In this document: positions 35,759 to 62,844 of the stretch, piece after piece
How the letters are laid out: every line of letters begins with the position of its first letter
How positions within the stretch are numbered: the stretch's first letter is position 1
Source: an uncultured Alphaproteobacteria bacterium
GTDB lineage: Bacteria; Pseudomonadota; Alphaproteobacteria; RF32; CAG-239
Direction: 5' to 3'
Length of the DNA: 64,000 nucleotides
Assembly (NCBI GenBank): GCA_944391475.1
Contig: CALXTR010000007.1
Span: 1 to 64,000 of the forward strand
Translations under genes and position numbers: made by a program
The notes under the pieces: model-generated
Told to the model about the DNA's origin: nothing
Seen by the model: only the letters and a program-made list of their open reading frames with translations
Databases searched by the model: none

Positions 35759-35890
35759 GTTGGTTGGTTGGTCATTGTAACAATATCTTAACTCTTTCGT
35801 ATTATAAAATAACTGGAAAGATTTTTATTTTTTTGCTAAAATCATAAGAAATACACCGCCTGTTAAGTGAAAGTTTCAAAGGGGAAAAAT

Positions 35891-36289: not shown

Positions 36290-36301
36290 CGGAGGAACAT
36301 T

Positions 36302-37453: not shown

Positions 37454-37744
37454 ATGAAAGAACCAATATTAAAAGCAGTCGCCAATCCCCCCAAAATCTT
37501 ATGGGGGCCGTTTCTCCCGGTTTTATTAAACTTTGGGATACAGTTTCCGTTGATGTTTATCTTTATTGGTACTTTTAATATGAACCCGCTGACATTTATC
37601 TTTCTGATTGTTGTGGCACACGTGGCAATCATTGCAATTGGCGCTAAAGAGCCTCATATCGGAAATATGATACAAGCTTTTGGGCAAAGTAATAAGACGT
37701 CAAACAATCTCTATCAAGTAAAGGGGAATAAATTTGCACCCTGA
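37454..37744 (+). CDS. VirB3-like membrane protein
   Basis: A 96-residue protein with a short N-terminal PPKILWGP segment, two hydrophobic helices (about 20-38 and 46-63) and a polar tail starting AKEPHIGNM. Size, helix pair, the Lys-Glu-Pro-His tail (compare the KxDPxxF tail of VirB3/TrbD) and position directly before the VirB4 ATPase support VirB3. IcmT of Dot/Icm systems is a similar-sized alternative. It overlaps virB4 by 11 bases. Confidence 0.7.
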   Translation: MKEPILKAVANPPKILWGPFLPVLLNFGIQFPLMFIFIGTFNMNPLTFIFLIVVAHVAIIAIGAKEPHIGNMIQAFGQSNKTSNNLYQVKGNKFAP

Positions 37745-46700: not shown

Positions 46701-47633
46701 ATCATTAAAGACGGCTTGAGTTCCAACTCCAGAGGGGTTAATCCCTGTGTTGGTATGACGCGTCGTAAGGGTTTTTCAGCCTTTGACATCGCCACCAACA
46801 AAGATGTATTTTATCATCAGCGTTCTGGCTCTAAATTTGGCTTAAGCTTTGCCGATATTCCAAGTACGCAAGGTCGCAGTGAGTTAGGTGTATTCTTATA
46901 TGCTGAAGGCAATAACATCTATTTTAGGGAAGACTTTTTGGAATTAGTTAATAAGATTAATGCCATTGAGGGAGAATACAATGGAGGTCGCGATATTGGT
47001 AAAGATAGAGATATGAGTGATGGTCAGAAAAATGAAGAACATATGCTTTATATGACCCCATTTATCAATAACCAAATCGGAGGATATCTCCTTTCTGCCG
47101 ATGAAGAGCGGCAGTACCGCAAAGCCCGTGAAGATATGGAAAAAGAGATAGCCGATCTACGCCAAGATTTGCTTGAAGAATTCGCTCGTCTTGGGCTTGA
47201 AGCACCTGCAGATCTAGATTTGCACCGCGAGAAAGACTACGATGACTGCAGTAGTATTCTTAATGGCTACAAAGGAGCTCGCCTGATTGATATCAAAGAT
47301 GGCATCAAAAATACTGATGTTGGAGACAATGAGGTATTAAAAACCCGCATTGACCGCTTCCAAGAAAATTTGGATGCTATGGTTCAAGATGAAGACGAGA
47401 TGGTAAACATGGGTGAGAATGCCAAGGGCGGTCCGGAATTGGCCGAAGAAATAGCCACCGAAAAAGCCGATCTTGAAGCCAAGAAACCATTCAAAGATGA
47501 TGAAAAAGAAGCGGTGGAACGCGCACTGCGGGATATGTCCGCACCTTATTGCACTAACATTAATGATGGCAGCTACACCAAAACCTGCCCCGCTAATCAG
47601 ATTATGAAAGTTCTTGATTTGAGAGGAAAATAA
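43788..47633 (+). CDS. Giant exported protein with VirB5-like start
   Basis: A 1281-residue protein with a signal peptide (about 1-29, ending CHA), then FFGLFGFGIPVIEPASTASQLG. The GIPVIEP segment again recalls VirB5. Residues about 120-250 repeat the helical pattern of the smaller neighbours (RNKAREFYDDTV ... YNNYIATHMTMDSI). A central Ala/Glu/Lys coiled-coil stretch lies at about 580-660. The second half is cysteine-containing and globular without recognised domain (GHWCPAVKLAFGSK, GVNPCVGMTRRKG). No membrane helix besides the signal, so it is not VirB6. Starts on the upstream stop (ATGA). Confidence 0.6.
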   Translation: MRKSPIISAKKIVFSLVLATMLSLSSTCHAFFGLFGFGIPVIEPASTASQLGKTISVAVTEYKALLNKLRQVYDNKVTAGALKYLTKFENKLGEHNQLPGTKFIQEPKTLEEELGVKDLNYDEAAVKRAIYRLFLEYPSDDIIIQMNYRNKAREFYDDTVLDVYSGSRELSKYLTNDVSAKFANLRENMQRGEAGAQKAEDMNAVIYNNYIATHMTMDSIIAVVQEATALKAQLEAAKAIRDTLKPLIYENTKQCPIGNGYNGDAQGATVSYNLPVSGSVSGEYETAFAQITTPSERGEAYNPDEDMFKREDYQDRDSQGSVEFELGVDPKIEYPLYNNRYKINELDKLEPIYDNIQKAMIAHNLIKKLRSAKESFDRYNDIVRLHERSKVQLAMSDQCGVNFLSNIYVNPGQVWCGSSDCQYIDDFGVRKGITAWAIDAYDTAKAAHTNSIPESAWKIPTPKASPNPDPVTLETEPLFIDSQAPEKANVESQLTTIGGDELSDEGRKAELLPWQVGAVGIEALADNPESWGTTWDNFRIWNDVRSFYVQFIMIKYENFYTRTRSDTAEYIIHEGMRGWNIANRNNAKKKVKEEAEKARQEARAAAAAAKSAAYARAAEASRKGESYNLSGALSSIESNLQSTLAAIEEDLKKKLKAIDQEFGINNSFIPQFSPIVTDLGERGDIVDESACDAATAAGEAAKAGLYYRSNPLGSLYQQGKSVYFTSDSYLLTQIENAKKEMCPYGEDLYLGKISAAGIHASMIDALKAYYIPIIDAYGVVVYTVYPYRDYFNSHDTTAETEEYFVGSMAKVRDLKAPKAPPSSTTAPLREIFHYDNVDFDNSKPISKKQFLNHGGKIPEIWQMLLAPTTPFVEHELDLAGILDGKYLHKKAFYVLEKRQGHWCPAVKLAFGSKLAARYLTLTRGGITPCIMHNVETNEVDGPSTSYFTEPELVGVDVIEINQSPYKYMPKIIIKDGLSSNSRGVNPCVGMTRRKGFSAFDIATNKDVFYHQRSGSKFGLSFADIPSTQGRSELGVFLYAEGNNIYFREDFLELVNKINAIEGEYNGGRDIGKDRDMSDGQKNEEHMLYMTPFINNQIGGYLLSADEERQYRKAREDMEKEIADLRQDLLEEFARLGLEAPADLDLHREKDYDDCSSILNGYKGARLIDIKDGIKNTDVGDNEVLKTRIDRFQENLDAMVQDEDEMVNMGENAKGGPELAEEIATEKADLEAKKPFKDDEKEAVERALRDMSAPYCTNINDGSYTKTCPANQIMKVLDLRGK

Positions 47634-48392
47634 ATGGGCAATTCGCCAAAAACAATACAAGGCAGTAAAATTCTCGCCATCGAAGATAAAAACGGTGGCG
47701 AGAATGTAGCGTTTATAAACTCATTGGAGCGGGAGCGAGAAAATGCCAAGCTGTATTATTATGTTTGGTTAGCTCGCTTGTTTATATTTTTGGCAGTTTC
47801 ATCATGTGGCTATATGGTTTTATCAAGTTTATCGCTGTTTAGGCTTGCCGGTCTTATTACTATTGAGCCGTACTTAATGATAAACTCCAACACTTCACAA
47901 GAAATTGTCCGCGACGAACCCATAGCGGTCGATATGGCCTCTAAAACGCAGTTAATGGAAACTTTCGTCAAGCAATATATCCTGATTGCCAATACCATCA
48001 TTGATGATCAGATAGAAATGCGCAGCCGCTGGGAACCAGGCGGCATGGTCAATTTTTTGTCTGCCCCTGATGTGTATATGGAATTTTATAAAAACAACGT
48101 CCCACGCCTCAAAGAGTATAAGGATAAGCACTTAACTCGAGAGGTCGAGATAATTTCCATTTCGCGTCAGGGCGGTGAGAAAAGCCCGCTCTGGAAGGTC
48201 GACTTTAAAACCAATGACTTGTATAGTGACAATGGCGGAGAAGGTGGAGTTCAGTTATTTAAGGAGCGTTTTTGGACAGCCTCAGTTATGTCTTACTTCA
48301 TTCCCGAAAGAAGTTTTGTAGGTCGCCGTCTGATTAATCCGCTAGGCTTTACGGTTACTCGTTTTAATCAAAGTGCAATTGATATTCTATAA
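47634..48392 (+). CDS. VirB8-like inner-membrane protein, copy 1
   Basis: A 252-residue bitopic protein. It has a cytoplasmic N-terminus of about 45 residues, one membrane helix (about 45-68) and a periplasmic NTF2-like domain with RLAGLITIEPYLMI, EMRSRWEPGGMVNF, WKVDFKTNDL and FTVTRFNQSA. The layout and pattern fit VirB8/DotI/TraM proteins, which form the inner-membrane core ring. It is paralogous to the protein at 48807-49556. Begins directly after the upstream stop. Confidence 0.78.
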   Translation: MGNSPKTIQGSKILAIEDKNGGENVAFINSLERERENAKLYYYVWLARLFIFLAVSSCGYMVLSSLSLFRLAGLITIEPYLMINSNTSQEIVRDEPIAVDMASKTQLMETFVKQYILIANTIIDDQIEMRSRWEPGGMVNFLSAPDVYMEFYKNNVPRLKEYKDKHLTREVEIISISRQGGEKSPLWKVDFKTNDLYSDNGGEGGVQLFKERFWTASVMSYFIPERSFVGRRLINPLGFTVTRFNQSAIDIL

Positions 48393-48516
48393 TCTTAGGC
48401 TTTGATTTTTGCTAAAAATAATCGTCTTCTATTTTGCCTAAAAATCTATTTTAATCTAAACTGTTGATAAGTTGGGGATTTTGCAAGCTTGCTATTAGAC
48501 TTTTAAATGAAAAGAG

Positions 48517-48522
48517 TATAAT
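48517..48522 (+). promoter_or_regulatory. Candidate -10 element before lipoprotein gene
   Basis: TATAAT in an AT-rich gap of 211 bases between the two VirB8-like genes. The -35 region is poor. It may give a separate transcript for the outer-membrane part of the system. The rest of the gap (48393-48603) shows no gene. Confidence 0.35.
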
Positions 48523-48603
48523 TTAATAAAAAATAAATGTTTTCATGTTGAATGTTAATGGAAGCATTATGATATAAACGCTTTGTGCACGAAAGGTTTA
48601 TGA

Positions 48604-48792
48604 ATGTCTAAATACAAAATGATGTTAGCTTTTGTAACGCTGTTGTTATTGTCTGGTTGCTTTGGTTCATATTATGAACCTGAGCCGGTTGGCGTTGGTA
48701 AAGGTGGCGATGAGCTCAAACTTTCGCCTTGCGCTTGCTTGCAGGTTGAATTGCCAAAAGATTTGCCTGATTGGTTCGTTGAAACAATTTAG
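48604..48792 (+). CDS. VirB7-like small lipoprotein
   Basis: A 62-residue lipoprotein with signal ending LLSGC (Cys about residue 19), then a polar stretch and CACLQVELPKDLPDWF with two close cysteines. Size, lipobox and position just ahead of VirB8/VirB9-like genes match VirB7, the outer-membrane core lipoprotein that binds VirB9, sometimes through a disulfide. AAAGG precedes the ATG. Confidence 0.62.
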   Translation: MSKYKMMLAFVTLLLLSGCFGSYYEPEPVGVGKGGDELKLSPCACLQVELPKDLPDWFVETI

Positions 48793-48806
48793 TTGCGGAA
48801 AGACAT

Positions 48807-49556
48807 ATGGCAGACAATCGCTTAGGGGTTAATAATTCTGAACAAAAACTCATTGGTAGCGGCCGTCCTCGTCCGGGCACGCGTTCTTCTTCGCAACCTA
48901 AAAATGAGTTTTTTGTCGGCAATACCAATGAAAAAAGGTATTTGTGGACCGCGCGCGCGTTTGCTGTTATTACGGCGATAAGTGTTTGCTGCAATATAGT
49001 TTTAATGATTGCAATTACTCAAGTCATTCCTCTGTTTAGAGTTGAGCCGTTTTTGTTGACATTCCAAAACAAACAAGAACAAGTAATCAACATTGTTCCC
49101 ATCAAAAACGATATGGAAAAAGAAACGGGCATTACGGAGGTTTTTGTTCGCCAGTATATTTTGCTGCGCAGTTCGTTTACGAGAGATATTCCGGAGATGG
49201 AATCTCGCTGGATGCCGGGCGGCGCATTACAAGAAATGTCTGACAGTAGTGTATATGAAGATTTCTTAAGAAACACGGCTACGCGTGCGTTACAAATAAT
49301 TCGAGCCAAACAATTAACGAGGGAAGTTAAAATTCTTTCTGTTGTAGAATTGACCAGTGGTTTGTGGCAAGTGGAATATGAAACAAGGGATATGTATCCG
49401 GATTCGAAATCTCCGGATGTCAATTATTGGACCGCATCATTGCGTGTTGCCTATCGGCACAAAACAGTAAAATATGGCGAACGGCTTAAAAATCCGGTCG
49501 GCTTCACGGTAGTCAGGTATGCTTTAACTCACAATAAAGTTAATACCGGAAAATAG
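48807..49556 (+). CDS. VirB8-like inner-membrane protein, copy 2
   Basis: A 249-residue bitopic protein with a basic disordered N-terminus, one membrane helix (about 50-75) and a periplasmic NTF2-like domain. Blocks are shared with copy 1: LFRVEPFLLTF, FVRQYILLRS, MESRWMPGGAL, LTREVKILSV, YWTASLRV and NPVGFTVVRY. Paired VirB8-like proteins are known in I-type systems (DotI and DotJ), but here both keep a full periplasmic domain. Fourteen bases after the lipoprotein gene. Confidence 0.8.
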   Translation: MADNRLGVNNSEQKLIGSGRPRPGTRSSSQPKNEFFVGNTNEKRYLWTARAFAVITAISVCCNIVLMIAITQVIPLFRVEPFLLTFQNKQEQVINIVPIKNDMEKETGITEVFVRQYILLRSSFTRDIPEMESRWMPGGALQEMSDSSVYEDFLRNTATRALQIIRAKQLTREVKILSVVELTSGLWQVEYETRDMYPDSKSPDVNYWTASLRVAYRHKTVKYGERLKNPVGFTVVRYALTHNKVNTGK

Positions 49557-49572: not shown

Positions 49573-51237
49573 ATGTTCAAAAGCTTCACAAAAAAAATCA
49601 TTCTTGCCGGCTTGTTTGGAGCGATTGTTTCAGACGCTTGCGCTCAAACCGCACAACTTGATGCCGTGGCCAACGAAAGTAGTGGTCAGTATGCTCCTAT
49701 GAATATGGGCTATGCCGGTTTTAACTCTTTAGGTATGACCCAAGCCGCCTGGTTGGATCCATTGCAAAATTTAGGAGAGGGGCAGTCTCGCCCAGCCTAT
49801 TCAAAATACTATTGGTCACCGGATTTGGTGCTGCCTATCCGTTTGCGTGAAGGTATGATTACGTTGATTAACTTCCCATCATGGGAAATGATTGAAGATG
49901 TGTTTATTGGTGATAATGCCACGTTTGATGGCCAAATTTCTGGACCCAATACTGTGCTCTTGTATCCTCGCAAAGGTGCTAATGTTGGTGTTGATACCAA
50001 TGTGATTATTTTTGGTCGCTCCGGCAATCGTTACGTGTTTTATGTTAAAAGCGAAGCCGTTAATACCGAGCGTTTGACCAACTCCATTATCGATATTGAA
50101 GTGATTGATGGTAATGGCGGTGATGGTAGTAAGGCTTCAACGCTTAACAGTCCGCTTGGTCGAGGCAGTATTAGTCGCGGAGGCTCGGGCTCATCTGGAC
50201 CAAAGTCTGTGGATTCGACTTATACGCGGCGCTTTTTGGGAGAAGATTGGCTGAAAGAAATTCCGGTTGATCCTACTAAGTTTAGATTTGATATTGAAGT
50301 ATATGTTCCCAATCCCGAAGATGTGGTGATTGCGCCTGAGCGCGTTTGGAGAGACGACATCTTTACCTATGTAGATTTTGGTAATAAAGCGCTAAATATG
50401 AACCAACGACCGATTGCCACCTTAATTGTTGAACGACTTGAAGTTCCGGTTGGCTTTCGCACTAAAGGTCCAAATGGCCGACTAATGGTTATTGAGGGTA
50501 TTGGTGATATTGTGTTGCGCAACGGCAAAAGAATAATTTGTCTCAAACTGCGCCGCGGTGACGATGAAGGTTTGGAAAATGTTGGTCTTCAAGATGATGA
50601 CTTACCAGAAAGATGGGATGTTCCAGCCCCATATCCTCAAGGCAAAACCCCACAAACGGCAGATGTTTATACCACTCCTTATCCGGGGATGGGAAATCAA
50701 TCGTCAAAAAGAGGCGGTAACTCTGGAACCTTATCTCAAATTCCGATGGCCTCTCCGATTGTCGGCAATGGAGATCGCTCAGCCTCAGGACAATATGATA
50801 TAAACGTAGGCGGCAGTGAGGTGATTGTACCTCAGTATGGCAATGGCGGATCTCAAGGTGTCAATGTTAGCTATCAAGTTCCGGCGGGTATGCAAAGAGT
50901 AAATAATCGCACGGCAGGTGTTACTGATCAGCGTTATCTGGCTCAATATGGATATGGCTCCGGCTTTACGGATTCTGATGCCAATATTTCAATTGAGCTT
51001 GGAACCGATGCGGACGTTAGCAAGCTGGAAACCTTGTGGGATGACTTGTCTCGTAAAAACGCAAAAATACTTTCAACCTACAGTCCGTTTTTCTCGGTTG
51101 ATGCTCCCGCAGACGGTCAGGGCAAAGAATTGTTTCATCTTCGCGTCGGTCCGATTGGTAGCTTAGAAGAAGGTGATTCGGTGTGTGCTCAATTAGGCCG
51201 TAACGGAGTATTTTGCAGTGTGGTGAGAACTCAATGA
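49573..51237 (+). CDS. virB9: VirB9-like protein with C-terminal SPOR-like domain
   Basis: A 554-residue periplasmic/outer-membrane core protein. It has a signal peptide (about 1-24, ending ACA) and a VirB9 N-terminal beta domain (GMITLINFPSWEMIEDVFIGD, about 85-105). The VirB9/CagX C-terminal domain follows (about 225-330; VWRDDIFTYVDFG, RPIATLIVERLEVPVGF, GDIVLRNGKRIICLKL). A Gly/Ser/Gln-rich linker leads to a last domain of about 80 residues (ISIELGTDADVSKLETLW ... LFHLRVGPIGSLEEG ... VFCSVV) with the SPOR pattern, which in other proteins binds denuded peptidoglycan. Canonical VirB9 ends near 290 residues. Confidence 0.82.
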   Translation: MFKSFTKKIILAGLFGAIVSDACAQTAQLDAVANESSGQYAPMNMGYAGFNSLGMTQAAWLDPLQNLGEGQSRPAYSKYYWSPDLVLPIRLREGMITLINFPSWEMIEDVFIGDNATFDGQISGPNTVLLYPRKGANVGVDTNVIIFGRSGNRYVFYVKSEAVNTERLTNSIIDIEVIDGNGGDGSKASTLNSPLGRGSISRGGSGSSGPKSVDSTYTRRFLGEDWLKEIPVDPTKFRFDIEVYVPNPEDVVIAPERVWRDDIFTYVDFGNKALNMNQRPIATLIVERLEVPVGFRTKGPNGRLMVIEGIGDIVLRNGKRIICLKLRRGDDEGLENVGLQDDDLPERWDVPAPYPQGKTPQTADVYTTPYPGMGNQSSKRGGNSGTLSQIPMASPIVGNGDRSASGQYDINVGGSEVIVPQYGNGGSQGVNVSYQVPAGMQRVNNRTAGVTDQRYLAQYGYGSGFTDSDANISIELGTDADVSKLETLWDDLSRKNAKILSTYSPFFSVDAPADGQGKELFHLRVGPIGSLEEGDSVCAQLGRNGVFCSVVRTQ

Positions 51238-54200
51238 GTAAAGAACCGCTAACACATTCGGAAACTTACTTAAAGAAAACCAACCGTATAATTCTTACGG
51301 TTGGTATTACCTCATTATTAATCTTTATTTTTGGCTTGGCGCTTTTGCTCTTAAGCAACGACCCCATGGTTGAATATGAAGCACCAAATTTCACCGATAA
51401 TGATGATGCTCTTAACATTACCGATCGTCCGGAAACCAGTTCGGTAGGTATAGAATTTGGTAATATTATTGAAGAAGAAATTCCTCTTACGACCACCCCA
51501 AATCCAGTACCTTTGGGACAAGTTGTAATCGGTACAGACGCCAAAAATGTTCTGACCTTAGGAACCAACGGTCGTAGCGCAGTTAAAATTCTCTCCGTAA
51601 CTCTGGCCGATCCTCCGGCAGATGGTTTTAGCTTTACCGATGGCTGTAGTGACATCACTCTTCAAGGTGATGACACTTGTCATATCCAAATTGCATGGGT
51701 TCCGGTTGTCGCCGGCAATGTTCAGAACAATTTTGTCATTTCATGGCAAGAGGTTGGTCTTGGACAAGGCAATGCCAAAGCCGAGAAAGTTCCTGTAATT
51801 GGAAACGCAGTCAACCGTGAAGATTGCAGTTACTGTGAGCCCTTGCCGGGAACGGAAAATAATACAACCGCTAAAGCTCGCGCAGTGCGCTATGCGATTG
51901 GTCCGGACGGAAATATCATTGGTGAAATTGACAGTGAAGGTTATGGTCGCGATAGCGCCGGAAATGTTATTGGTCGCGTAAACAGCAATGGCTTGGTTTT
52001 AGATAAAGACGGCAATGTTATTGGTGTTGCTCAAAACCGCCAAATTGCAATTGATAGTAATGGCAATGTGATTGGTACGGTCAACCCAGACGGCGCGGTT
52101 ACAGACAGTAACGGAAATATCATTGGCAAGGTTTTAGCAGATGGTAGTGTGGTAGATAGTGATAACAACATCATTGGTCGTGTTGCAGATACCGGTTTGG
52201 TTTATAACAACAATGGCGATATTATTGGCCGCGTAATGCCCGATGGCACTGTAGTTGATTCTAATGGCAACATAATTGGTCGGTTAAATGGTCAAGGCGA
52301 AGTGGTCGATGGCCTCGGTAATATTATTGGATATGTTAGCAGTCCTGGTCAAGTCGCTGTTGATGCCAAAGGCAATTCCCTTGGTGTGGTTATGCCCGAT
52401 GGCAGTGTAGTTGATGCCGACGGCAATACTGTAGGCTATGTTGATAAAAACGGCAATGTGGTTAGCAGTCAGCCTATAGGGAGTAAGGGTAAACAAGTGC
52501 GCTTAGCTCTTGATAAAGACGGCAAGGTTATTGGTTGGATAGATTCAGATGGCACGGCCTATGATTGGTCGGGACGGCGTATAGGAAAAATGCAGCCTGA
52601 TGGTACCATAATTGATGATAGCGGAGTTGTGATTGGCCGCAGCGGTGGCGAAAGCTATTTAGCCGTTGACGATAAAGGCAAAATTATTGGTTTTGTCGGT
52701 CTTGACAACAAGGTGTATAACACCAAAGGCGAAGAAATCGGCTATGCCGGATCAGATGAAAAACTCTATGACAGCAATGGTACAATTGTCGGTTCATTGG
52801 TTCCGCGTGGTCTTATCCCAATTATGCCAAATGGCGGAGTGTTAGGAGAAGTTACCAATACCGGGTTGGTGGTTAATCCGGCTAATAAACAGCCCTTAGG
52901 TCGGGTGATGTCTAGTCATTTGGTTCGGGACATGGCCGGAAATAGAGTTATTGCTGAGATGGTACGTGGCGGATTAGTTGTTGGCTTTGGCTGTAAACAA
53001 ATCGGCTATTTGGATTCCGATGGGATAATTAGAAAAGACAATAAAGAGACTTCATATCGCGTTTTACCCGATGGAGTAGTGGTTTCGCCCGAGGGAGCAT
53101 ATGTAGGCGAAGTCGCCAAAACCGGCAAAGTTTTTGATAATAATTGTATGTTGTTAGGTGAGGCCGGTCCAGATGGTATTGTGCGTGATGCCAATCGTCA
53201 ATATATTGGCTGCGTTAATCCCGATGGCAGCGTGTTAGATGAAAAAGGCAATTTAATTGGCGGCGTAATCAAAGAAGGATTTGCTGTTGACCAAAATGGT
53301 AGTTTTATGGGGCGCATTTCCGATGATGGCTTAGTAGTTGATAAAAACAATCAGCCCATTGGTTGCATCGGTATCCATGGCGAAGTTTTCAGTAAAACAG
53401 GCGGCTATGCCGGACAAATAAAAGAGCGATCCTATGCGTTTGATTTGAATGGAAATTTGATAGATGTAGTTAGACCAGACGGCACGGTTTTACTTCCCAA
53501 TAATCGTTTGGCAAGATTGTTTTCGCACAATTTGATACTTAACGAAAATAATGAGATAATTGGTACGGCTATATCTCAGCATACCTCGATTGCCGGTAGT
53601 GACGGCAACCTTTTAGGGCGAGTTTTTGCCGATGGTAATATTTATGATGATAAGGGTTATAACAAAGGTAAAATCACCGGCGACGGATATAGTTTTTATA
53701 GCCGAGCGATAGGTCGTCCATATCCTCGTGGATATGTGCTTAACATGAAAGGTGAGGCTCTTGGATATAGCTACTATGATGGCAGTGTGTTCAACCGTTT
53801 TGGTGATATGATTGGTCGGGTTACTCCTCAAGGAGTATTGCTCAATGAAAAAGGCGAGTATCAAGGACAGGTAATCCGTTCTGGTTCTGCCGTTGGCTAT
53901 GATGGTGCCTATATTGGCCATACCTTATCAGATGGTACGATTCTTGGCGTTGACGGCACTAAAGGAGGCCGCGCTACTGGGGATTATAAAGTTATAAATT
54001 CTTCAGGAGAAGTTTCCGGAGAAATCATTCCCGAGGGCCTCATGGTAGACATTTGGGGCAATCCGCAAGGTGTGGTTAATGGTATCAGCAATGTGGTTAA
54101 TATGCAAGGAGATATCATTACAGCCATTTTACCCGGCGGCGCAACCGATAAGAATTATACGTTGCTAAGACGAGGAACGGTTATAAGTTTTAATGGTGCG

Positions 54201-54659
54201 GTTATCGGTACGGTAATGCCCAATGGTAATATTATCGATTCGTCTAACAGCATCGTAGGCAGAGTTTTATCTGATGGTAGTGCAATTAACACCACCGGCA
54301 AACTAATTGGAGAAGTTGTTAGTGGCGACATCGTTATTGATAAGTCAGATAAAGTTGTGGGTTATGTAAATTTTGATGGAAAAATTTCTGCATTTAGCGG
54401 TAATATTATTGGCAGAGCCTTGTCTGGCGGGTTGGCAGCTGATGATAGCGGAAACATCATCGGACAAATCTTTAAGCTTGGGGCTACCGTACTGGGCAAT
54501 ACGGGAAAATATCGCGGTCGCGTAGCACCTGATGGCAAAGTGATTGATGCCAAAGGTAACATCATTGGCTATGTCAAGAATAACGGCTCGTTTATAGACT
54601 TGGATAAAAAGGTTTCCGGCTATGTTTTACAAGAAGTAGCTAAGAACCGGAGGAATTAG
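51234..54659 (+). CDS. Membrane-anchored giant repeat protein (DotG-like N part)
   Basis: A 1141-residue protein with a short cytoplasmic N-terminus, one membrane helix (about 19-41) and an ASH/Ig-like beta domain (about 85-195; FTDGCSDITLQGDDTCHIQIAW). From about 220 to the end come tandem repeats of roughly 17 residues of the form D.nGNiIGrV.pDGtVv. Legionella DotG/IcmE also has a membrane N-part, a repeat zone and a VirB10 end, but with shorter repeats. Here the ORF ends in the repeats, and the VirB10 end is on the next ORF. The start ATG overlaps the virB9 stop (ATGA). Confidence 0.75.
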   Translation: MSKEPLTHSETYLKKTNRIILTVGITSLLIFIFGLALLLLSNDPMVEYEAPNFTDNDDALNITDRPETSSVGIEFGNIIEEEIPLTTTPNPVPLGQVVIGTDAKNVLTLGTNGRSAVKILSVTLADPPADGFSFTDGCSDITLQGDDTCHIQIAWVPVVAGNVQNNFVISWQEVGLGQGNAKAEKVPVIGNAVNREDCSYCEPLPGTENNTTAKARAVRYAIGPDGNIIGEIDSEGYGRDSAGNVIGRVNSNGLVLDKDGNVIGVAQNRQIAIDSNGNVIGTVNPDGAVTDSNGNIIGKVLADGSVVDSDNNIIGRVADTGLVYNNNGDIIGRVMPDGTVVDSNGNIIGRLNGQGEVVDGLGNIIGYVSSPGQVAVDAKGNSLGVVMPDGSVVDADGNTVGYVDKNGNVVSSQPIGSKGKQVRLALDKDGKVIGWIDSDGTAYDWSGRRIGKMQPDGTIIDDSGVVIGRSGGESYLAVDDKGKIIGFVGLDNKVYNTKGEEIGYAGSDEKLYDSNGTIVGSLVPRGLIPIMPNGGVLGEVTNTGLVVNPANKQPLGRVMSSHLVRDMAGNRVIAEMVRGGLVVGFGCKQIGYLDSDGIIRKDNKETSYRVLPDGVVVSPEGAYVGEVAKTGKVFDNNCMLLGEAGPDGIVRDANRQYIGCVNPDGSVLDEKGNLIGGVIKEGFAVDQNGSFMGRISDDGLVVDKNNQPIGCIGIHGEVFSKTGGYAGQIKERSYAFDLNGNLIDVVRPDGTVLLPNNRLARLFSHNLILNENNEIIGTAISQHTSIAGSDGNLLGRVFADGNIYDDKGYNKGKITGDGYSFYSRAIGRPYPRGYVLNMKGEALGYSYYDGSVFNRFGDMIGRVTPQGVLLNEKGEYQGQVIRSGSAVGYDGAYIGHTLSDGTILGVDGTKGGRATGDYKVINSSGEVSGEIIPEGLMVDIWGNPQGVVNGISNVVNMQGDIITAILPGGATDKNYTLLRRGTVISFNGAVIGTVMPNGNIIDSSNSIVGRVLSDGSAINTTGKLIGEVVSGDIVIDKSDKVVGYVNFDGKISAFSGNIIGRALSGGLAADDSGNIIGQIFKLGATVLGNTGKYRGRVAPDGKVIDAKGNIIGYVKNNGSFIDLDKKVSGYVLQEVAKNRRN

Positions 54660-57600
54660 ATTTGCAGATGTTCAAACAAATAAGATTTTATTTTGCAGGC
54701 AAGGTAAGAACATGCCTATGTGCCATGATAATTTCGGCCACGCTACCGGTTTTAGCGTCTGCACAAGAAATAACAGCCATTGATTTTAATGGTGACCTGA
54801 TTGGTAAGGTCATCCCTGATGGTAGTGTTATTGGTTTTAAGAATGACTATATCGGAAACATCACGGCCGATAGCTTGATTGTCAATGCCGAAGGTGAGCT
54901 TATCGGTGGCGTAGTTCCGCAAGGTATTGCTATCGGAAACGATACCAAAGTTTTGGGAAAAGTTAGCAGTGATGGTTCTGTTAGGCTTTCTTCTGGTAAA
55001 ATTATTGGTAAGGTTCTTCCTAATGGTTTAGTTGTCGATGACTATTACAACATCATAGGTTCGGTTTTGTTTCCGGGTCTGGTCTATGGAGCCAATGGTC
55101 AAACGGTCGGCCGTCTGGCCGGTAACGGTGTCTATACCAATCTTAACGGTAATGAAGTTGGATATGTTGCCCCCACCGGATATGCCTACCGCCGCCAAAC
55201 CGATGGCTATCAGCTGGAAGGCCGCTTAATTTCTTCAAAGATGATTGTTTCCAACACCGGCGAGTTTATTGGTAGTGTTGTTCCCGGAGGCGAGGTCTCT
55301 GGATTTAATGCAGATACTTTAGGGCGGATACGCGCTAATGGTTTTGTCTACGATAAAGACAACAAAATAATCGGTGGTATCATCCAAACCGGCTATGCTT
55401 TCAGCGATATAGGTGAATATCTTGGATATATTGCATATAACGGTGAAGTTATCAATAAAGGGCAGAGTGTAGGTCGTTTGCGTGCCGGAGGAGAAGTTGT
55501 CGATTCTAAAGGCGAACATCTGGGATATTCTGTAGACTTAGCCGCTACCGCCACCGATACTTCTGGTAGGTATTTAGGACGTCTAGTCCCCGGAGGATTG
55601 ATTGTTAAAGGTAAAGAAACCATTGGCCGCATTGGGCCGCGTAACTGCGTTTTAGATCAAAAAGGAACCATTATCGGTTGGTTAGTAACTCCAGGCTCCG
55701 TGTTTGACTACGCCGGCCGTCTTAAAGGTATGGCTCTAAGCGGTGGTAGTTTTGTTTCATTGGGCGGTAATGTAAATGGTGTTATCAAAGCCAATCAAGC
55801 CTATGACAATGCCGGTAATGTAATCGGCGCAGTGTTGCAGCCCACGATAGCCGTAGATTTAAATAACAAAAGCTTAGGGGTGCCAAACATTAATGGCTAT
55901 ACCATCGATTCTCAACAGGTTGTTACTCCCTATGGTTATGTGCTCAATCAAAATGGCGAAATTTCCGGTTTTGCCCTTCCTTTGCGTCCTCTATATTCAT
56001 TGTTTGGAAATCCTGTAGGGCGGCCTGAGCTCGATGGTAGTATTAAAGCAATTGCCGGTACTAAGATTAATGGTCGTTTTACCGCCTCAGGTATATTGTT
56101 AGATGAACGCAACCGCATGCTAGGACAGCAGATATCGGCTCATTTTGCTGTAGATGATATGGCCAAGAGCTTAGGGCTTATTTCCGATGGAAATTTGCTT
56201 TTAAGCTCAGACAATAAGCTTTCTGGCAAAATTCTTCCCGACTATAGTGTCGTTAAAACCGGTTCGATCGAAGATAACTCACCGGTTCCGGTTGTAGGTA
56301 GCGCTTTTCATGAACAAATCGCCGTTAGCATTGATGGTAATAGGATAGGGCTGACTGCATCTGATGGCAATATTTTCGACACCAGCGGAGCTAAGGTTGG
56401 TAAGGTTTCCTCTCGTGGGCTTGCATTAGATAACAATAATATTATTACCGGTAGTGTTATCCCTTATGTTCCGGCAGTCAATTTCGGTCGCACTTGTACA
56501 TATTTAGGAGTGCTAACTCCCGAAGGAGTGGTTCGCAACTGGCGAGAAGTAAATGTTGGCCGAGTTTTAGCCAACCGTCAATTGGTTTCAGAAAATGGCC
56601 TAATCACCGGTTATCTGATTCGTCCTGAAAGTGTTATTGACTATAATGGCAACATAATTGGTGCTGTTTCAGCCAACGGACAAGTCGGTAATTATAATAA
56701 TGACTTTTTAGGTTGCGCAGATAGTTTTGGCCGTTTGTATAAAGAAAACGGGGAACTAATCGGACGCGTTGTGGAACATGAGCCGGTTATGAATTTTGAA
56801 AGTAATATTATCGGGCGCAGCATTGCCGATGGGACTGTAGTAGATGAAGGCGGCCGCGTAATTGGCTACATGCAGCCAGATGACAATGTTAACTCAAAGG
56901 TAGGGCATCCATTAGGCGAATTGTTCCGCTACAAAGTTGCTTTTGACAATCGCGGCCGCTATCTCGGACGAGTTCAGCCTAATGCAGAAGTTCTAAATGA
57001 TGCCAACGAAACAGTAGGCACAGTTGACCACGATGGCTATGTACTTTCTAATGCCAAAAGGATTGGTTTTGCACTGTATGATTTCTACATTTATAATGAA
57101 TCCGGTCAGGCAATTGGATACATCACCAAGACCGGAGAAGTTATGAGCTTCACCAATAGAAATTTAGGGCGAGTTCGCAAAGGTTTCCTTGTCGACAAGG
57201 ATGAAAAGGTAATTGGTCGCGGTTTAAGAAGCTATAACATCCGTGATAATTCCAATAATGTATTAGGTACATTGCAGTTTAATGGTAAACTGATTAATTC
57301 TAAAAATCAGGAGCTTGGTACCATTAATGAAAAAGGCGAAATCCTTGCCGAAGATGGTAAAGTGATAGCTCAGGCTCATAAGCTGCAATATTATAGCAAG
57401 TCTCCGTTAGAAGTTGTACTCGATGAAAAAGGCAACATTATCGGCTATTTGGATGAAGATGGAAACATTGTCAATTCCAAAGGCGAAATAATTGGCTATA
57501 AAAACACAGAAGGTAAACTTGTTGATGAGAACGGTAAAGAAATAGGTAAAGTTGCCAATTTGCAAAAGATATTTGACACGGACGGCAATCTTGTTGGTTA

Positions 57601-57990
57601 TGTTCGTGCTGACGGTAGTGCCGTAAATAAAGATGGCAAAGTAATTGGCCGTCTCAATGAAGATGGCACGGTTGTTGATGCCAATAATAATCTGATAGGC
57701 GGTATAGGCCTAGAGTGGTATGAGAGAGCCAAACCCAAAAAAGACAAACCCCGCCAAACTGAAGTTCCCAGCATTGGAGATCCTATAGAAGATAAGGAAA
57801 GCCCCAAGGGCGAAGCCAATCCTAACAATCAGTATCGCCGTTCATTAAATATTGCCTTAACGCCTGATGGCGAATATTTAGGTGAGATACGTGAAGATGG
57901 TACGGTTATCAATAAGCAGGGCCAAGTGGTCGGAACCAAAATGCCCGATGGTTTGATTATCAATAAAGAAGGCGAATTGGTTGGTATTGA
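51885..57990 (+). repeat. Coding repeat tract, about 51 bp per unit
   Basis: Both giant proteins are built from degenerate units of about 17 residues (51 bases) with the core GNIIG.V..DG.V.D. Clean runs are seen at 51890-52490 and again at 57410-57720. The rest is more diverged, with occasional 16- or 18-residue units. The Gly-hydrophobic-Gly spacing suggests stacked beta hairpins or a beta-solenoid. The tract is broken only by the gene junction at 54660 and the signal peptide of the second protein. Confidence 0.8.
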
Positions 57991-59266
57991 AGATATCAAA
58001 AAATCTGATGGAAATGATATATTTGTTCCGGCAGGGACCTTTGGAAAAGGTGGGGCTTATGGAACCGGCAGTGGCCCAAGTGGAGATTTGGGACCAGGTG
58101 GAGGATTTGGCCCCGGAGAACGCTATAGCCTACAACGTCAACAAGCCCTCAACATTGCTATGGCTGAACGCCGTCAAAATATTGCGGTTGGAAAAATTAG
58201 TAGTAACAGCCGTCGTGAGGCCTTTGACGGAATGCAAAAGGATTGGAGCGAGCAGGGAATACAAAAGGTCATTTCTTCTTGGCGCGTTGATATGAGCGAA
58301 ATGATATTGGCCGACAAACCAATTCCGGCCGTTATTGCCCGTTCAATTGATAGTACACACCCCACACCAGTTACCGCCTTTGTTGAGCGCAACGTCTATG
58401 CTGAAGAAGGACGCAATATCTTAATACCGGCAGGTAGCCGAGTTATCGGAACCGTGGGCGGGGTAGTTGCCACCAGCGAAAAAACATCTACTTCTGCTAA
58501 AATAGAAATTAATTGGGAGCGCCTAATTCGGCCCGATGGATCTATTTTTGTCTTCGACGGTATCACCGGAGATGCACAAGGACGCGGTGGTGCATTAGGA
58601 TATCTAGATCAACAACTCTTTAAGCGCTATGCTCTTCCGGTTATGACTAGTGCGCTTACCAGCCTGACTTCATATTATATTGATACTGAACAAAATAGTG
58701 ATGGCGAAACCGAAACATCTCAACAGCAAGCAGCCAGCGATGCCCGACAGAACTTCTTAACTCAGATGAACACTATTTTTGAGCAAATTTTGGGCGACAA
58801 AGCCAGTATTCGTCCCATGACCTATATTCCGGCTGGTACCAGAATTATTATTTATCCGAACGTTGACTTGTGGTTACGTTCATTTGAACGCGATCAGGAA
58901 GTAAGTACTTATACCCAAGTTGGTGGTGGTAAAGGACTGCTAGATGGTAAGGAAGGTGAGCGCGGACTAAGAGAAACACGCACCAGCACCGGTACCGGCA
59001 CTAACAGTACAACCGGTGGCCAAGTGATGTATGATGAAAACGGTAATGATATTGAAGCTCAAAATACGAGCGTTCTACTTGGAGATGGCGGCAATCAAAA
59101 ACAAAGGGTTGCTCCTCCGCCACCCATCTATACCGGTCAACCACCGGCTGCAGCCATGAGCACTCCGGCTACACCTAAACCAACTTATACGCAACCAAGT
59201 ACGGACCGTTCTGTTCCACCTGCTAAAAGTAGCAGCAACAGCAATGAAGTTCCTCAGCTATTCTAG
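54662..59266 (+). CDS. virB10: Giant exported repeat protein with VirB10 domain
   Basis: A 1534-residue protein with a signal peptide (about 1-34, ending ASA), some 980 residues of the same 17-residue repeats and a charged Pro-rich linker. A last pair of repeats and a Gly-rich stretch (about 1120-1150) lead to the VirB10/TrbI domain (about 1200-1402). That domain shows IPAVIARSI, NILIPAGSRVIGTV, RLIRPDGSIFVFD, ALGYLDQQLFKRYALPVMTSALT (the antenna helices) and IPAGTRIIIYPNVDLWL. A Pro/Thr-rich tail ends it. VirB10 normally crosses the inner membrane; this one starts with a cleavable signal instead. TTG start with GGAGG eight bases upstream. Confidence 0.85.
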   Translation: MQMFKQIRFYFAGKVRTCLCAMIISATLPVLASAQEITAIDFNGDLIGKVIPDGSVIGFKNDYIGNITADSLIVNAEGELIGGVVPQGIAIGNDTKVLGKVSSDGSVRLSSGKIIGKVLPNGLVVDDYYNIIGSVLFPGLVYGANGQTVGRLAGNGVYTNLNGNEVGYVAPTGYAYRRQTDGYQLEGRLISSKMIVSNTGEFIGSVVPGGEVSGFNADTLGRIRANGFVYDKDNKIIGGIIQTGYAFSDIGEYLGYIAYNGEVINKGQSVGRLRAGGEVVDSKGEHLGYSVDLAATATDTSGRYLGRLVPGGLIVKGKETIGRIGPRNCVLDQKGTIIGWLVTPGSVFDYAGRLKGMALSGGSFVSLGGNVNGVIKANQAYDNAGNVIGAVLQPTIAVDLNNKSLGVPNINGYTIDSQQVVTPYGYVLNQNGEISGFALPLRPLYSLFGNPVGRPELDGSIKAIAGTKINGRFTASGILLDERNRMLGQQISAHFAVDDMAKSLGLISDGNLLLSSDNKLSGKILPDYSVVKTGSIEDNSPVPVVGSAFHEQIAVSIDGNRIGLTASDGNIFDTSGAKVGKVSSRGLALDNNNIITGSVIPYVPAVNFGRTCTYLGVLTPEGVVRNWREVNVGRVLANRQLVSENGLITGYLIRPESVIDYNGNIIGAVSANGQVGNYNNDFLGCADSFGRLYKENGELIGRVVEHEPVMNFESNIIGRSIADGTVVDEGGRVIGYMQPDDNVNSKVGHPLGELFRYKVAFDNRGRYLGRVQPNAEVLNDANETVGTVDHDGYVLSNAKRIGFALYDFYIYNESGQAIGYITKTGEVMSFTNRNLGRVRKGFLVDKDEKVIGRGLRSYNIRDNSNNVLGTLQFNGKLINSKNQELGTINEKGEILAEDGKVIAQAHKLQYYSKSPLEVVLDEKGNIIGYLDEDGNIVNSKGEIIGYKNTEGKLVDENGKEIGKVANLQKIFDTDGNLVGYVRADGSAVNKDGKVIGRLNEDGTVVDANNNLIGGIGLEWYERAKPKKDKPRQTEVPSIGDPIEDKESPKGEANPNNQYRRSLNIALTPDGEYLGEIREDGTVINKQGQVVGTKMPDGLIINKEGELVGIEDIKKSDGNDIFVPAGTFGKGGAYGTGSGPSGDLGPGGGFGPGERYSLQRQQALNIAMAERRQNIAVGKISSNSRREAFDGMQKDWSEQGIQKVISSWRVDMSEMILADKPIPAVIARSIDSTHPTPVTAFVERNVYAEEGRNILIPAGSRVIGTVGGVVATSEKTSTSAKIEINWERLIRPDGSIFVFDGITGDAQGRGGALGYLDQQLFKRYALPVMTSALTSLTSYYIDTEQNSDGETETSQQQAASDARQNFLTQMNTIFEQILGDKASIRPMTYIPAGTRIIIYPNVDLWLRSFERDQEVSTYTQVGGGKGLLDGKEGERGLRETRTSTGTGTNSTTGGQVMYDENGNDIEAQNTSVLLGDGGNQKQRVAPPPPIYTGQPPAAAMSTPATPKPTYTQPSTDRSVPPAKSSSNSNEVPQLF

Positions 59267-59276: not shown

Positions 59277-60245
59277 ATGAGTTTTAAGGTATTAGAATCT
59301 GTTTTGAGACCACTTTCGTACTGGTATAACCAAGATAATATTGAAGAAGTAGCCATTAATCGCTCCAAGCAAATCTGGCTGCGCTTGCGTGGAAAAAGAG
59401 CATATCCTTGGGTAATGTATAAAGATGAAAAGCTCACTAAAGAATATTTAACTGACTTACTTTATATCATTGCCAATACCTATGAGCTTCCCTTTGATCC
59501 GGTTTCAGGCATTCCTGTTGTTTATGCGGCCATACCTGGGGAGCACCGCTTTTCTGCCATTTGTGGTCGTAACGTGATGTATGATCAGGAAGACCTTACC
59601 GGCGGTATTGCTTTAACCATACGTGTTCATAGCGAAGATGTAGCTTTTGGTCTGCAAGACTATGGTTTAAGTCAGGGTAATCAGTTGCATAAAATCAACC
59701 CTCTCAAAGACATTAAAGATCCGGAAGACCCCTATGAAAAGCTGCTCATTAGCATCAAACGCGGCGACCACATTTTGGTCAGCGGCGCAACCGCAACCGG
59801 TAAGACCACTTTCTTAAACAATTTGCTGAAGATACTTGATATCCATAAGCGCATTTTAACCATTGAAGATACTAGAGAGCTAATTGTACCTCACCCCAAT
59901 CGAGTTCACTTGGTATTGTCACGTACCGCCCAAACCAACGAACTCAACTATGCCAATGTTATCGACTTGGTTGTTCGTTTCACGCCAGATGCCATTATCG
60001 GCGGCGAGCTTTCTACCGAAAATGCAGGTGCAATATGGGAGCTGATGGGATCAGGTCACGACAACTGTTTGGCCACCATTCACGCCGAAAGTTCAGAAGC
60101 GGCTTACGCAGCTTTTGCAGACCGAATTTTGCACTCCTACCCAACAATGGATCGCAAAAAAACCATTGAAGAAATGAAACACAAGCTAAGAGTTGTGCAA
60201 ATTAACCGCGATGGCAACCTCCGTGCAGTAACAGAGGTAAGATAA
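59277..60245 (+). CDS. virB11: VirB11-family secretion ATPase
   Basis: A 322-residue hexameric ATPase. The N-terminal domain begins LRPLSYWYNQDNIEEVAINR, typical of VirB11/TrbB. Walker A is GATATGKTT (about residue 169), the Asp box ILTIEDTREL, the Walker B region FTPDAIIGGELSTENA and the His box NCLATIHAES. The glycine-rich GG-E motif replaces the usual VGE(I/V)R. It is last in the secretion operon, 10 bases after the VirB10 gene, and would energise assembly or export at the cytoplasmic face. Confidence 0.9.
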   Translation: MSFKVLESVLRPLSYWYNQDNIEEVAINRSKQIWLRLRGKRAYPWVMYKDEKLTKEYLTDLLYIIANTYELPFDPVSGIPVVYAAIPGEHRFSAICGRNVMYDQEDLTGGIALTIRVHSEDVAFGLQDYGLSQGNQLHKINPLKDIKDPEDPYEKLLISIKRGDHILVSGATATGKTTFLNNLLKILDIHKRILTIEDTRELIVPHPNRVHLVLSRTAQTNELNYANVIDLVVRFTPDAIIGGELSTENAGAIWELMGSGHDNCLATIHAESSEAAYAAFADRILHSYPTMDRKKTIEEMKHKLRVVQINRDGNLRAVTEVR

Positions 60246-60249: not shown

Positions 60250-60939
60250 TTATTGGGTTAATGGTGGAATATTAAATTGCCCGATTTCGCCTGGACGGAT
60301 TTTTACATTAGAATAGCGCATATTTCCGGTCTCAATTACAAAACGCTGACGGCCTGTTAATTGTGCAGCTAAGTCATAAAAATCGCGAGCATTGAGTTCT
60401 TGACGCTGCGGATTCATCAAATACAAGACACATCCCTGACCAGCTTCCGCCATGCCGCAACGGGCTCTCCCGTGAGGAACTTCAGCATTGACCACCACTC
60501 CTTGCAGTCCATTGCGTGTAACTTTTTGCTCCGAGAAAAATAGTCTCGACACAAAAAAGCCCACCACAAAGGCCGCAAAAGCCGCTACCATAATCATTTT
60601 AGTATGACTATTAGATGTTTCTACCTGATAGTAATCTGTTCCATAAGCCGCCTCGTGTTCATCTTCAATAAACTGCGGAGTTTGAGGTTTAAATTGCGGT
60701 TGTTCAGCCGTTTTTGTTGAGGGAAGGTTATTAATATTCAATATGCTATCTACATCAAAAGCATTAGCAGATGACGAGTTTTTCTGTAAATTTTGCTCAA
60801 AAGGATTATTAGCAGCCAAACTTTTATCTTCAATTGGCGCTTGTGGTTTGATTTTTCTGATTGGTTTTTTGACTTTCTTCAAGCCAGGTTTCATCGTTTT
60901 ATTATTACTGGCCGCATCATTATTTGAAAATTCATTCAT
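60250..60939 (-). CDS. Bitopic membrane protein, unknown
   Basis: A 229-residue protein. The first 110 residues are cytoplasmic, rich in Lys, Pro, Asn and Gln. One membrane helix lies at about 113-133 (MIMVAAFAAFVVGFFVS), followed by a periplasmic domain of about 90 residues with two cysteines (ARCGMAEAGQGCVLYLM). No family recognised. It ends 4 bases from the convergent virB11 stop. Location suggests a part of the same secretion machine. Confidence 0.68.
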   Translation of the reverse strand: MNEFSNNDAASNNKTMKPGLKKVKKPIRKIKPQAPIEDKSLAANNPFEQNLQKNSSSANAFDVDSILNINNLPSTKTAEQPQFKPQTPQFIEDEHEAAYGTDYYQVETSNSHTKMIMVAAFAAFVVGFFVSRLFFSEQKVTRNGLQGVVVNAEVPHGRARCGMAEAGQGCVLYLMNPQRQELNARDFYDLAAQLTGRQRFVIETGNMRYSNVKIRPGEIGQFNIPPLTQ

Positions 60940-60950
60940 CTTAACCTCAC

Positions 60951-62198
60951 TTAAAGATTATATTCCAAATGTTTACTGGTTTTGGTCGTGCGAATAATTC
61001 TTGGTACCATAAACACCAGAGTTTCGGATTTCGGTTCAGCCACCCCAAAAATTTCATTTGGAATACCAATAATCATAAAATTATCTCCGATTTTACTACG
61101 GATATTGAATTGAGTAATTTGGCCACTAGTTTTTTCCAAAGTTATATTAGAAAATATTTTGTTACCTTGTTCTAAAGAAGCCTTCGCTAAAATTGATAAA
61201 TCAGACCAAGCATTTCCTCTGGCGCCGCATTTACCAATGTCAAACCGTGATAGCCACAAATTCGGCACGGTAATTTTGCCTTGAGACAACATTTCAACTT
61301 TTGCCTGCTGCCCAAGATAATTTTGTAAGGTTTGAATATTGATATCATTAGATGTTGTCAGCACTCGACCAATCACACCGGTTTTAGCTGTTCTAATTGT
61401 ACCATAGTCAAAGATGTTGACCATGTTTTGCCAATTAATTTCCCCATTGGGGGTGTTAGGATAGATTCTAAAAATACTAACATCAAACGCCACCAAAATC
61501 GGATTATCTTCAAAATAAGCAATTAAGGTCATAATTTTGTTTTGCAGAGCAAAATCGGCATCAAATGAAATTGTATAGTCTTCCCAATCAGTTGTAATAT
61601 CAGTAATTCCGGCGCCCCTTAAGACATCAAGTACACTTAACAGAATAGGTCTTGATTTCGGCACATGAAGACTAAAATTACTTTTTCTGGAGATACGCAA
61701 AGTTTTATTATTAGCATCATAAGTATAATAAATTTCTGCAGCCTCAGCAATCATTCTTACTACTTCAGAAAGCTCTCCGCGTAAATTTTCAGCCGAGATA
61801 CTAGCATAAGGAGCATCTTTTGCAATCACTCGAATATCGGCTTCTTTAAGGAGCTTATACAGAGCTTTTTCGGCCGGCATGGTATCAAAAGAGAAACCAT
61901 TGACCTCGTAGCGCGGCAACATATCGTTACGACCGTTTCTAACCAAATTAAAGGCTTTTATGTTAAAAGGAATAGTAGTAATGATTTGTTGAGCATTCCA
62001 GTTAACCGAGCAGCGCAAAGGAGCTTCCAAGTCCAAGTTTCTGGCCCCTTCTGAAGTATGAATGGGGAGTTGCTCAGGTTCCTCAATTTTTGCGGTAACG
62101 ACATTATTGGGCATCACAATAGTTTGTTGGGGATTAATTTTACACCCACACAACAGTGCTACTGCTATATATCCACAATATATAAATAAGCGTTTCAT
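60951..62198 (-). CDS. Secretin-N-domain-like lipoprotein
   Basis: A 415-residue lipoprotein with signal ending LLCGC (Cys about residue 19). A domain resembling secretin N0/N1 modules follows (YASISAENLRGELSEVVRMIAEAAEIYYTYD, then TLRISRK). The end is GDNFMIIGIPNE ... LVFMVPRIIR, resembling the last strands of a secretin, though the typical secretin core is short or degenerate. It may form an outer-membrane ring for the secretion system, in parallel to the pilus secretin at 30816-32432. Eleven bases separate it from the downstream gene. Confidence 0.65.
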   Translation of the reverse strand: MKRLFIYCGYIAVALLCGCKINPQQTIVMPNNVVTAKIEEPEQLPIHTSEGARNLDLEAPLRCSVNWNAQQIITTIPFNIKAFNLVRNGRNDMLPRYEVNGFSFDTMPAEKALYKLLKEADIRVIAKDAPYASISAENLRGELSEVVRMIAEAAEIYYTYDANNKTLRISRKSNFSLHVPKSRPILLSVLDVLRGAGITDITTDWEDYTISFDADFALQNKIMTLIAYFEDNPILVAFDVSIFRIYPNTPNGEINWQNMVNIFDYGTIRTAKTGVIGRVLTTSNDINIQTLQNYLGQQAKVEMLSQGKITVPNLWLSRFDIGKCGARGNAWSDLSILAKASLEQGNKIFSNITLEKTSGQITQFNIRSKIGDNFMIIGIPNEIFGVAEPKSETLVFMVPRIIRTTKTSKHLEYNL

Positions 62199-62210
62199 CT
62201 TCTCTCCGTG

Positions 62211-62777
62211 CTAAATATCTGTTTTTGGTGTAGGTGCTTGTATATCTGGTAAATCGTTGTCTATAGCATCATGAGTTGCATATTGTGACATATCACCAAT
62301 TTGTGTACTGTTTTCTCGTAAAATTTTATCAACAACTTCATCCATACTCATTCCGGCTCCGACAGTTGGATCTACGGTTTTATCGACTTCGCCTAGGGCT
62401 TTTTTCATTTTCTCCAGTTCGCTGTCATCTTGTTTAATCATATCAGGTGAAGCATTACTACGTAATTCTTGTTTGTATTCTTTTAGCTCTTTTTTTAAGC
62501 CGTTTAATCCGCCGGTAATTTTTTTCTCAATGTAAGGATAGAGTTCTTTGTGGTCAATCAGAAAATCGCCGGTATCACAAATTTCTTCCAACACATCTAG
62601 AATATACCCATAGAACGGATATTCTTCGACAGCAATATTCCCGCTGCGAACACATCTAGCCGCAATTCGAGAAATAGTTCTATCCAGATAGTCGCGCAAA
62701 CGGATATAATTATCCAAATACCATAACGTATCTTTAGATACATTATTAGCGTCGGTAAAATTTAGATTGTCAGCCAT
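62211..62777 (-). CDS. Soluble protein, unknown
   Basis: A 188-residue protein without signal or membrane helix. It is helical, with a conserved-looking N-terminal half (TLWYLDNYIRLRDYLDRT, AARCVRSGNIAVEEYPFYGYI) and a Lys/Glu coiled region (GLKKELKEYKQEL), then an acidic tail. The start is the ATG at 62777 with AGGTGG ahead, in preference to the GTG three codons earlier. No family recognised; a cytoplasmic factor of the neighbouring system is possible. Confidence 0.6.
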   Translation of the reverse strand: MADNLNFTDANNVSKDTLWYLDNYIRLRDYLDRTISRIAARCVRSGNIAVEEYPFYGYILDVLEEICDTGDFLIDHKELYPYIEKKITGGLNGLKKELKEYKQELRSNASPDMIKQDDSELEKMKKALGEVDKTVDPTVGAGMSMDEVVDKILRENSTQIGDMSQYATHDAIDNDLPDIQAPTPKTDI

Positions 62778-62844
62778 ATTAACCACCTTTCACTAACATT
62801 AATTTAATTTAGCAAAATTGGTTTGTAAATCACTTTTTAGGTTA

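Follow-up and report, generated by a model that had tools for sequence, protein, structure and literature searches.

VirB10-like proteins of type IV secretion systems (T4SSs) have been described as predicted to reach from the inner to the outer membrane as one protein (PMC9371333). Long repeats occur in CagY of Helicobacter pylori, a giant VirB10 whose middle repeats have been described as short helical motifs (PMC10706595), and in DotG/IcmE of the Legionella Dot/Icm (type IVB) system, an integral inner-membrane protein with pentapeptide repeats (PMC7511231). We analyzed a stretch of 64,000 nucleotides (the window; positions 1 to 64,000 of the forward strand of contig CALXTR010000007.1, assembly GCA_944391475.1) from an uncultured alphaproteobacterium of CAG-239, which is a family within the order RF32 in the current classification (PMC12509527). 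Its close relatives are uncultured gut Alphaproteobacteria, including Azospirillum sp. CAG:239. In this window the VirB10 position is occupied by two adjacent genes, P1 and P2 (Table 1). We propose, with a probability of roughly 0.7, that their products make up a two-part VirB10 whose repeat arrays dock in the periplasm.

VirB9, P1, P2 and VirB11 are contiguous. The ATG of P1 overlaps the stop codon of VirB9 (ATGA), 2 nucleotides separate P1 from P2 and 10 separate P2 from VirB11, so the pair sits where VirB10 is expected. An earlier note made from the sequence had described two adjacent open reading frames with a common 17-residue repeat, the first with an inner-membrane helix and an ASH/Ig-like domain, the second with a signal peptide and a VirB10 core and no anchor; each part of this description is borne out. 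Identity at a lag of 17 residues amounts to 0.241 in P1 and 0.156 in P2, far above the maxima reached at any lag in 200 shuffles (0.119 and 0.106). P1 contains a single strong hydrophobic helix (residues 19–37, mean hydropathy 2.64) preceded by basic residues, and then a linker modelled with low confidence, the Ig-like domain and repeats continuing nearly to the C-terminus. The predicted fold of residues 81–195 matches VesB (Z 10.7) and the ASH domain of CEP192 (Z 10.0), which places it among ASH/PapD-like folds; by sequence it scores 20.8 bits against Pfam ASH, below the 27-bit cut-off.

The P2 signal peptide (hydropathy 1.68) is followed in rank by a stretch of 1.46 that lies within the TrbI domain. 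Among 72 relatives in which the mature start can be recognised, the cleavage site is mostly of the AxA type, and in no case is a cysteine present at it. After about residue 1014 the main array gives way to a linker of low model confidence with a few more repeats, and then to the TrbI domain. The similarity of this C-terminus to VirB10/TrbI, for which the earlier note had suggested a profile search, was found: residues 1215–1405 match Pfam PF03743 (E 2.2e-35, 122.7 bits, cut-off 35). Scores against the NCBIfam VirB10/ComB10 equivalog models stay below their cut-offs (101.9 of 220 and 119.1 of 300). The predicted fold matches the solved VirB10-type O-layer structures of pKM101 (3jqo), X. citri (6gyb), CagY (6odi) and R388 (7o3j) with Z of 13.1–13.3, and DotG with Z of 12.3. 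Two model helices (about residues 1318–1339 and 1353–1378) occupy the antenna position in a low-confidence part, and the region enclosing them aligns to the O-layer structures.

P2 resembles VirB10/TrbI/ComB10 proteins in its C-terminal core, its place between VirB9 and VirB11 and perhaps the two modelled helices. It differs from them in its signal peptide and in lacking a strong hydrophobic helix beyond it, the anchor being carried by P1, and each chain bears about 900–1000 residues of putative hairpin repeats. By itself P2 is therefore no canonical VirB10; judged by their domains, P1 and P2 together supply both core and anchor. CagY, in contrast, consists of a single chain that includes a membrane segment, whereas here the chain is divided and the repeats are predicted to be beta. 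DotG/IcmE is likewise a repeat-bearing VirB10-like protein, and the P2 core matches its structures; however, the repeat here has 17 residues, P2 has no anchor and the gene set is VirB-like. From the original VirB10/DotG designation we consequently retain VirB10 and drop DotG and Dot/Icm, with the limit that Dot/Icm-specific genes were not searched one by one. The system is most simply classified as VirB-type, because VirB2-like, VirB4, VirB7-like, two VirB8-like and VirB9 genes surround the pair, and VirB6-like and VirD4-like genes lie elsewhere (two of the former further along the same contig, the latter on another contig).

The split is not peculiar to the window. Among 80 named loci, 71 have the adjacent pair, two have a single chain (L155 and L164) and seven are cut by a contig end; within the family and the order of the window, the pair is present in all loci in which the two genes are complete. 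The division of VirB10 function over an anchored and an exported repeat protein, claimed in the earlier note for this one sequence, is in this sense real and conserved. A Shine-Dalgarno-like site is present at the P1/P2 junction in all 71 pairs, and P1 ends in NRRN in 69 of them and in KNQRN in one more. Given this site and the kept C-terminal end, the boundary appears to be a functional junction at which translation of the two genes is coupled.

Outside the order of the window, the same head and TrbI core are found on one chain of 1,273–2,831 residues in 25 of 25 complete cases, all from other alphaproteobacterial orders. The first surveys yielded eight of these (L057, 2831 residues; L060, 1273; L068, 2348; L069, 2521; L070, 2149; L072, 2216; L155, 2207; L164, 2251), with scores of 74–149 bits for the P1 head. 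In two other orders 17/17 complete proteins are single-chain (P1 head 51–127 bits), some of which may share species with named loci. TrbI lies in a single frame of about 2,000–2,700 residues in 12/12 genomes of one of these two orders and in 30 of the 35 TrbI-positive genomes of the other. These single-chain giants (the eight above and most of L165–L184) combine the tail, helix and ASH-like head with the 17-residue repeat and the core. The aligned heads have in common the tail motif, the helix and the Ig-domain cysteines, and in most cases the CxxC that follows. P1 is therefore the N-terminal part of VirB10 and no newcomer, since the single-chain VirB10 proteins of related orders begin with a homologous head. 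Two further loci encode VirB10-like proteins in which a lipoprotein-signal-like N-terminus (LASC, LTAC) takes the place of a plain anchor helix: L061 (7264–8856) and L062, both on the reverse strand in oriented coordinates.

On a tree of TrbI and VirB11, the 27 split rows group in one clade (support 81/97, or 100/98 once L047, which diverges most, is left out), and one change suffices to account for the split label. Genome G081, from another order, adjoins this clade (69/87) with a signal-peptide-bearing, frameshifted P2. This pattern is best read as a single fission of the gene, accompanied by the gain of a signal peptide. The direction, fission and not fusion, is favored in part because other VirB10 proteins are single chains. 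Profiles of the P1 C-terminus and the P2 N-terminus gave no unique position for the break on the single-chain relatives, since all repeats match each other.

A 17-column matrix scan recovers 46 units in P1, and another 48 within P2 up to residue 1000, with the consensus VVDNNGNVIGRVLPDGS; turns of the NG and PDG type suggest that the units may fold as hairpins. Structure models (mean predicted local distance difference test score, pLDDT, of 80 for P1; for the C-terminal 1200 residues of P2, 69.5 as a whole and about 90 across most of the main array) render the arrays all-beta, with strands of about 5 and about 3 residues in alternation. In both proteins the repeats resemble each other most when they lie 3, 6 or 9 units from one another, and not 4 or 5; similarity at a distance of three exceeds that at two or four in 64/66 P1, 75/75 P2 and 8/8 single-chain proteins. 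None of 300 shuffles of the window's P1 or P2 gave an effect as strong; in two of the eight single-chain proteins, L072 and L155, it is weak, being reached by 15 and 17 of 300 shuffles. The invariant cysteine pairs (587/638 and 660/711) are spaced by exactly 51 residues, that is, three repeats. This superperiod, the cysteine spacing and the all-beta models together suggest that the arrays may form a hairpin superhelix with three repeats per turn. Duplication of three-unit blocks would also yield a superperiod, though the structure must still permit such blocks. Array length varies greatly between lineages, P1 reaching 2734 and P2 2366 residues at the extremes (L051, L058, L059, L091, L092).

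A comparable, left-handed hairpin superhelix is formed by the choline-binding repeats of LytA (PMC12029793). These and the beta-flowers share short glycine-rich hairpin repeats with the arrays, a resemblance from which we claim no kinship; choline-binding repeats have aromatic ligand sites, and beta-flowers are small closed barrels. Searches for a structural counterpart of the repeats were negative: phmmer against solved structures returned only a chance-level match (E 0.099), Foldseek gave poor TM-scores and root-mean-square deviations, Rhs and clostridial CROP repeats included, and thus no evidence for a fold. Viral structures gave no full-length match of good TM-score among the matches listed. 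The VIA-align fold comparisons reported above covered mainly the ASH-like and TrbI domains.

That the split merely reflects a sequencing or assembly error, or a decaying gene, is vanishingly improbable. Such breaks do occur in a few relatives (L071, L076 and L056, from genomes G222, G081 and G032, respectively), where giant repeat genes are interrupted by apparent frameshifts; L071 is divided into 589 and 1598 residues, the second part lacking a signal peptide, and L071 and L076 appear to be frameshifted genes rather than further fissions. In about 70 independent assemblies, however, the split of the window recurs together with the signal peptide and the ribosome site, which rules out sequencing error, and the P1 alignment retains a mean column identity of 61%. 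The earlier note had regarded a fused gene in close relatives as a sign of such an error; none was found in the family or order of the window, and the fused form, being the norm in other orders, becomes evidence for fission instead. Less improbable, though doubtful, is the view that the repeats are strings of closed four- or five-fold beta-flower barrels (PF21784, PF21785) and not a continuous superhelix. Beta-flowers have been described as a predicted fold in which four or five hairpins close into a barrel and a [DNEQ]xxG motif marks the tip of the hairpin (PMC10584680), and their Pfam profiles match both proteins: Bflower_2 with E 3.5e-63 in P1 and 2.1e-60 in P2, the other profile with 2.4e-20 and 7.2e-20. 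Yet a periodicity of 4 or 5 is what the repeat similarities of P1 and P2 do not display. The cysteine pairs also speak for three repeats per turn, although in a closed ring of four units neighbors 1 and 4 would match this spacing too. The continuous beta-solenoid of the earlier note is therefore backed in part by the superperiod, the cysteine pairs and the models, against the closed barrels that Pfam names.

Several observations weigh against the docked two-part VirB10. Contact between P1 and P2 is itself a matter of inference, and P2 could function without touching P1. Compensation between P1 and P2 lengths, considered as a sign of stacking, was rejected: the raw Spearman correlation of -0.51 disappears after independent contrasts (r 0.135), indicating a lineage effect. 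In favor of docking, the ends of the arrays facing each other, the P1 C-terminus and P2 N-terminus, rank among their best conserved parts (0.88 for the last 21 residues of P1 and 0.74 for the first 40 mature residues of P2, compared with about 0.3 in the P2 middle), although the ribosome site also constrains the final codons of P1. A further point against the proposal is the root of the TrbI+VirB11 tree, between split and single-chain forms, which is weakly placed (52/10). This root leaves some room for a split that is ancestral in the lineage, the single-chain giants being secondary fusions; we regard this as quite improbable, as it has to contend with the single envelope-spanning VirB10-like proteins of other T4SSs (PMC9371333) and with the N-terminal head of the single-chain forms that P1 retains. 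Another alternative is an arrangement in which fission decoupled the two ends, leaving P2 as an outer-membrane core with no link to the inner membrane and P1 as a separate scaffold for another partner, for instance VirB8, VirB6 or peptidoglycan. P1 and P2 have separate export signals, a Dot/Icm core reportedly assembles in the absence of its VirB10-like protein (PMC9371333), and the SPOR-like tail of VirB9 could hold the core to peptidoglycan. We nevertheless consider such decoupling unlikely: docking is favored by the common repeat, the strict adjacency of the genes, the conserved junction and the well-conserved adjoining array ends.

Under the docked two-part VirB10, P1 would be held in the inner membrane by the N-terminal helix inherited from the ancestral VirB10; its head would lie close to the ATPases, and its periplasmic part would consist of the PapD/ASH-like domain and about 50 hairpin repeats of 17 residues. 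P2, which would have acquired a Sec signal peptide where the gene broke, would contribute a second array of similar length and the VirB10 core, which is expected to join VirB7 and VirB9 in forming the ring and pore of the outer membrane. Both proteins would be made from one mRNA by coupled translation and would meet in the periplasm, most likely array to array, so that a non-covalent joint, and not one chain, would couple the inner-membrane ATPases to the outer-membrane channel and transmit force or a signal along a superhelical rod. The fullest version of this proposal, an order-wide two-chain VirB10 in which each chain has a long hairpin superhelix and the ATPases act on the pore through a non-covalent, possibly regulated rod joint, seems to us an even bet. 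The unusually thick periplasm or extracellular extension that the earlier note had entertained found no support.

Table 1. Features of the split VirB10 and of its surroundings, in coordinates of the window.
Feature	Position	Strand	Remarks
Type IVb pilus-like operon	22868-33207	-	adjoins the T4SS
Three small membrane proteins in tandem, VirB2-like pilins	35346-36805	+	TrbC match in the first, weak in the third
VirB4 ATPase	37734-40166	+	
Coiled-coil-like exported protein	42040-43791		583 residues
Exported protein	43788-47633		1281 residues
VirB8-like, copy 1	47634-48392	+	
VirB7-like lipoprotein	48604-48792	+	62 residues, lipobox LLSGC; kept in relatives
VirB8-like, copy 2	48807-49556	+	
VirB9 (CagX family), SPOR-like C-terminal tail	49573-51237	+	Pfam
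VirB9 SPOR-like tail	~50998-51234	+	Pfam E 0.001, just below cut-off
P1, inner-membrane-anchored repeat protein	51234-54659	+	1141 residues, ATG start; putative N-terminal half of split VirB10
P1 transmembrane helix, residues ~19-40	51288-51353	+	after conserved basic cytoplasmic tail S-E-x-Y-x-K-K-T-N-R
P1 PapD/ASH-like Ig domain, residues 81-195	51474-51818	+	conserved Cys 138/149; then CxxC at 198/201
P1 repeat array, residues 215-1134	51876-54635	+	17-residue units, 51-residue superperiod
Shine-Dalgarno GGAGG	54649-54653	+	within last P1 codons (NRRN-stop), 8 nt before P2 TTG
P2, exported repeat protein with VirB10/TrbI core	54662-59266	+	1534 residues, TTG start; putative C-terminal half of split VirB10
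P2 Sec signal peptide	54662-54763	+	cleavage after ASA-34 (before Q)
P2 main repeat array, residues 36-1014	54767-57703	+	
TrbI/VirB10 C-terminal domain, residues 1215-1405	58304-58876	+	two predicted antenna helices; Pfam PF03743 and fold
VirB11 ATPase	59277-60245	+	Pfam
Three function-unassigned genes	60250-62786	-	convergent to VirB11

Other genes of the locus deserve a brief description. The two VirB8-like genes (47634-49556) are different from each other and flank the VirB7-like lipoprotein gene, an arrangement kept in relatives. The SPOR-like tail of VirB9 is kept in 24/24 related loci, split and single-chain alike; if VirB9 binds peptidoglycan, this would be unusual to our knowledge. 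The T4SS operon further encodes two exported proteins with no Pfam match, one of them coiled-coil-like. Of the three genes convergent to VirB11, the first two lack a Pfam or NCBIfam match and the third lacks a Pfam match. The adjoining type IVb pilus-like operon encodes a PilS/bundlin-like pilin, a TcpQ-like protein, a secretin and two T2SSE ATPases; IncI plasmids carry both a type IVb pilus and a T4SS, and the neighboring operons of the window are reminiscent of them. Regarding the role of the system, protein export seems more likely than conjugation: a search for PF03432 relaxases, the one type covered, came up empty in 33 family genomes, which makes conjugation by a relaxase of that type unlikely, and each family genome with a match has one TrbI copy.

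Searches of open-access text for VirB10 fission, the RF32 T4SS and DUF3659 retrieved nothing on this system, and no publication on the single-chain giant VirB10 of related orders was found. A two-chain VirB10, fixed in a whole order that has single-chain giant relatives, therefore appears not to have been described before in that literature. It suggests that gut bacteria have a large and apparently undescribed class of giant VirB10 proteins with hairpin repeats. It also amounts to a natural experiment, a gene cut in mid-span with both halves under strong constraint and with single-chain relatives for comparison, and so permits a direct test of whether covalent continuity from the inner to the outer membrane matters for a T4SS.

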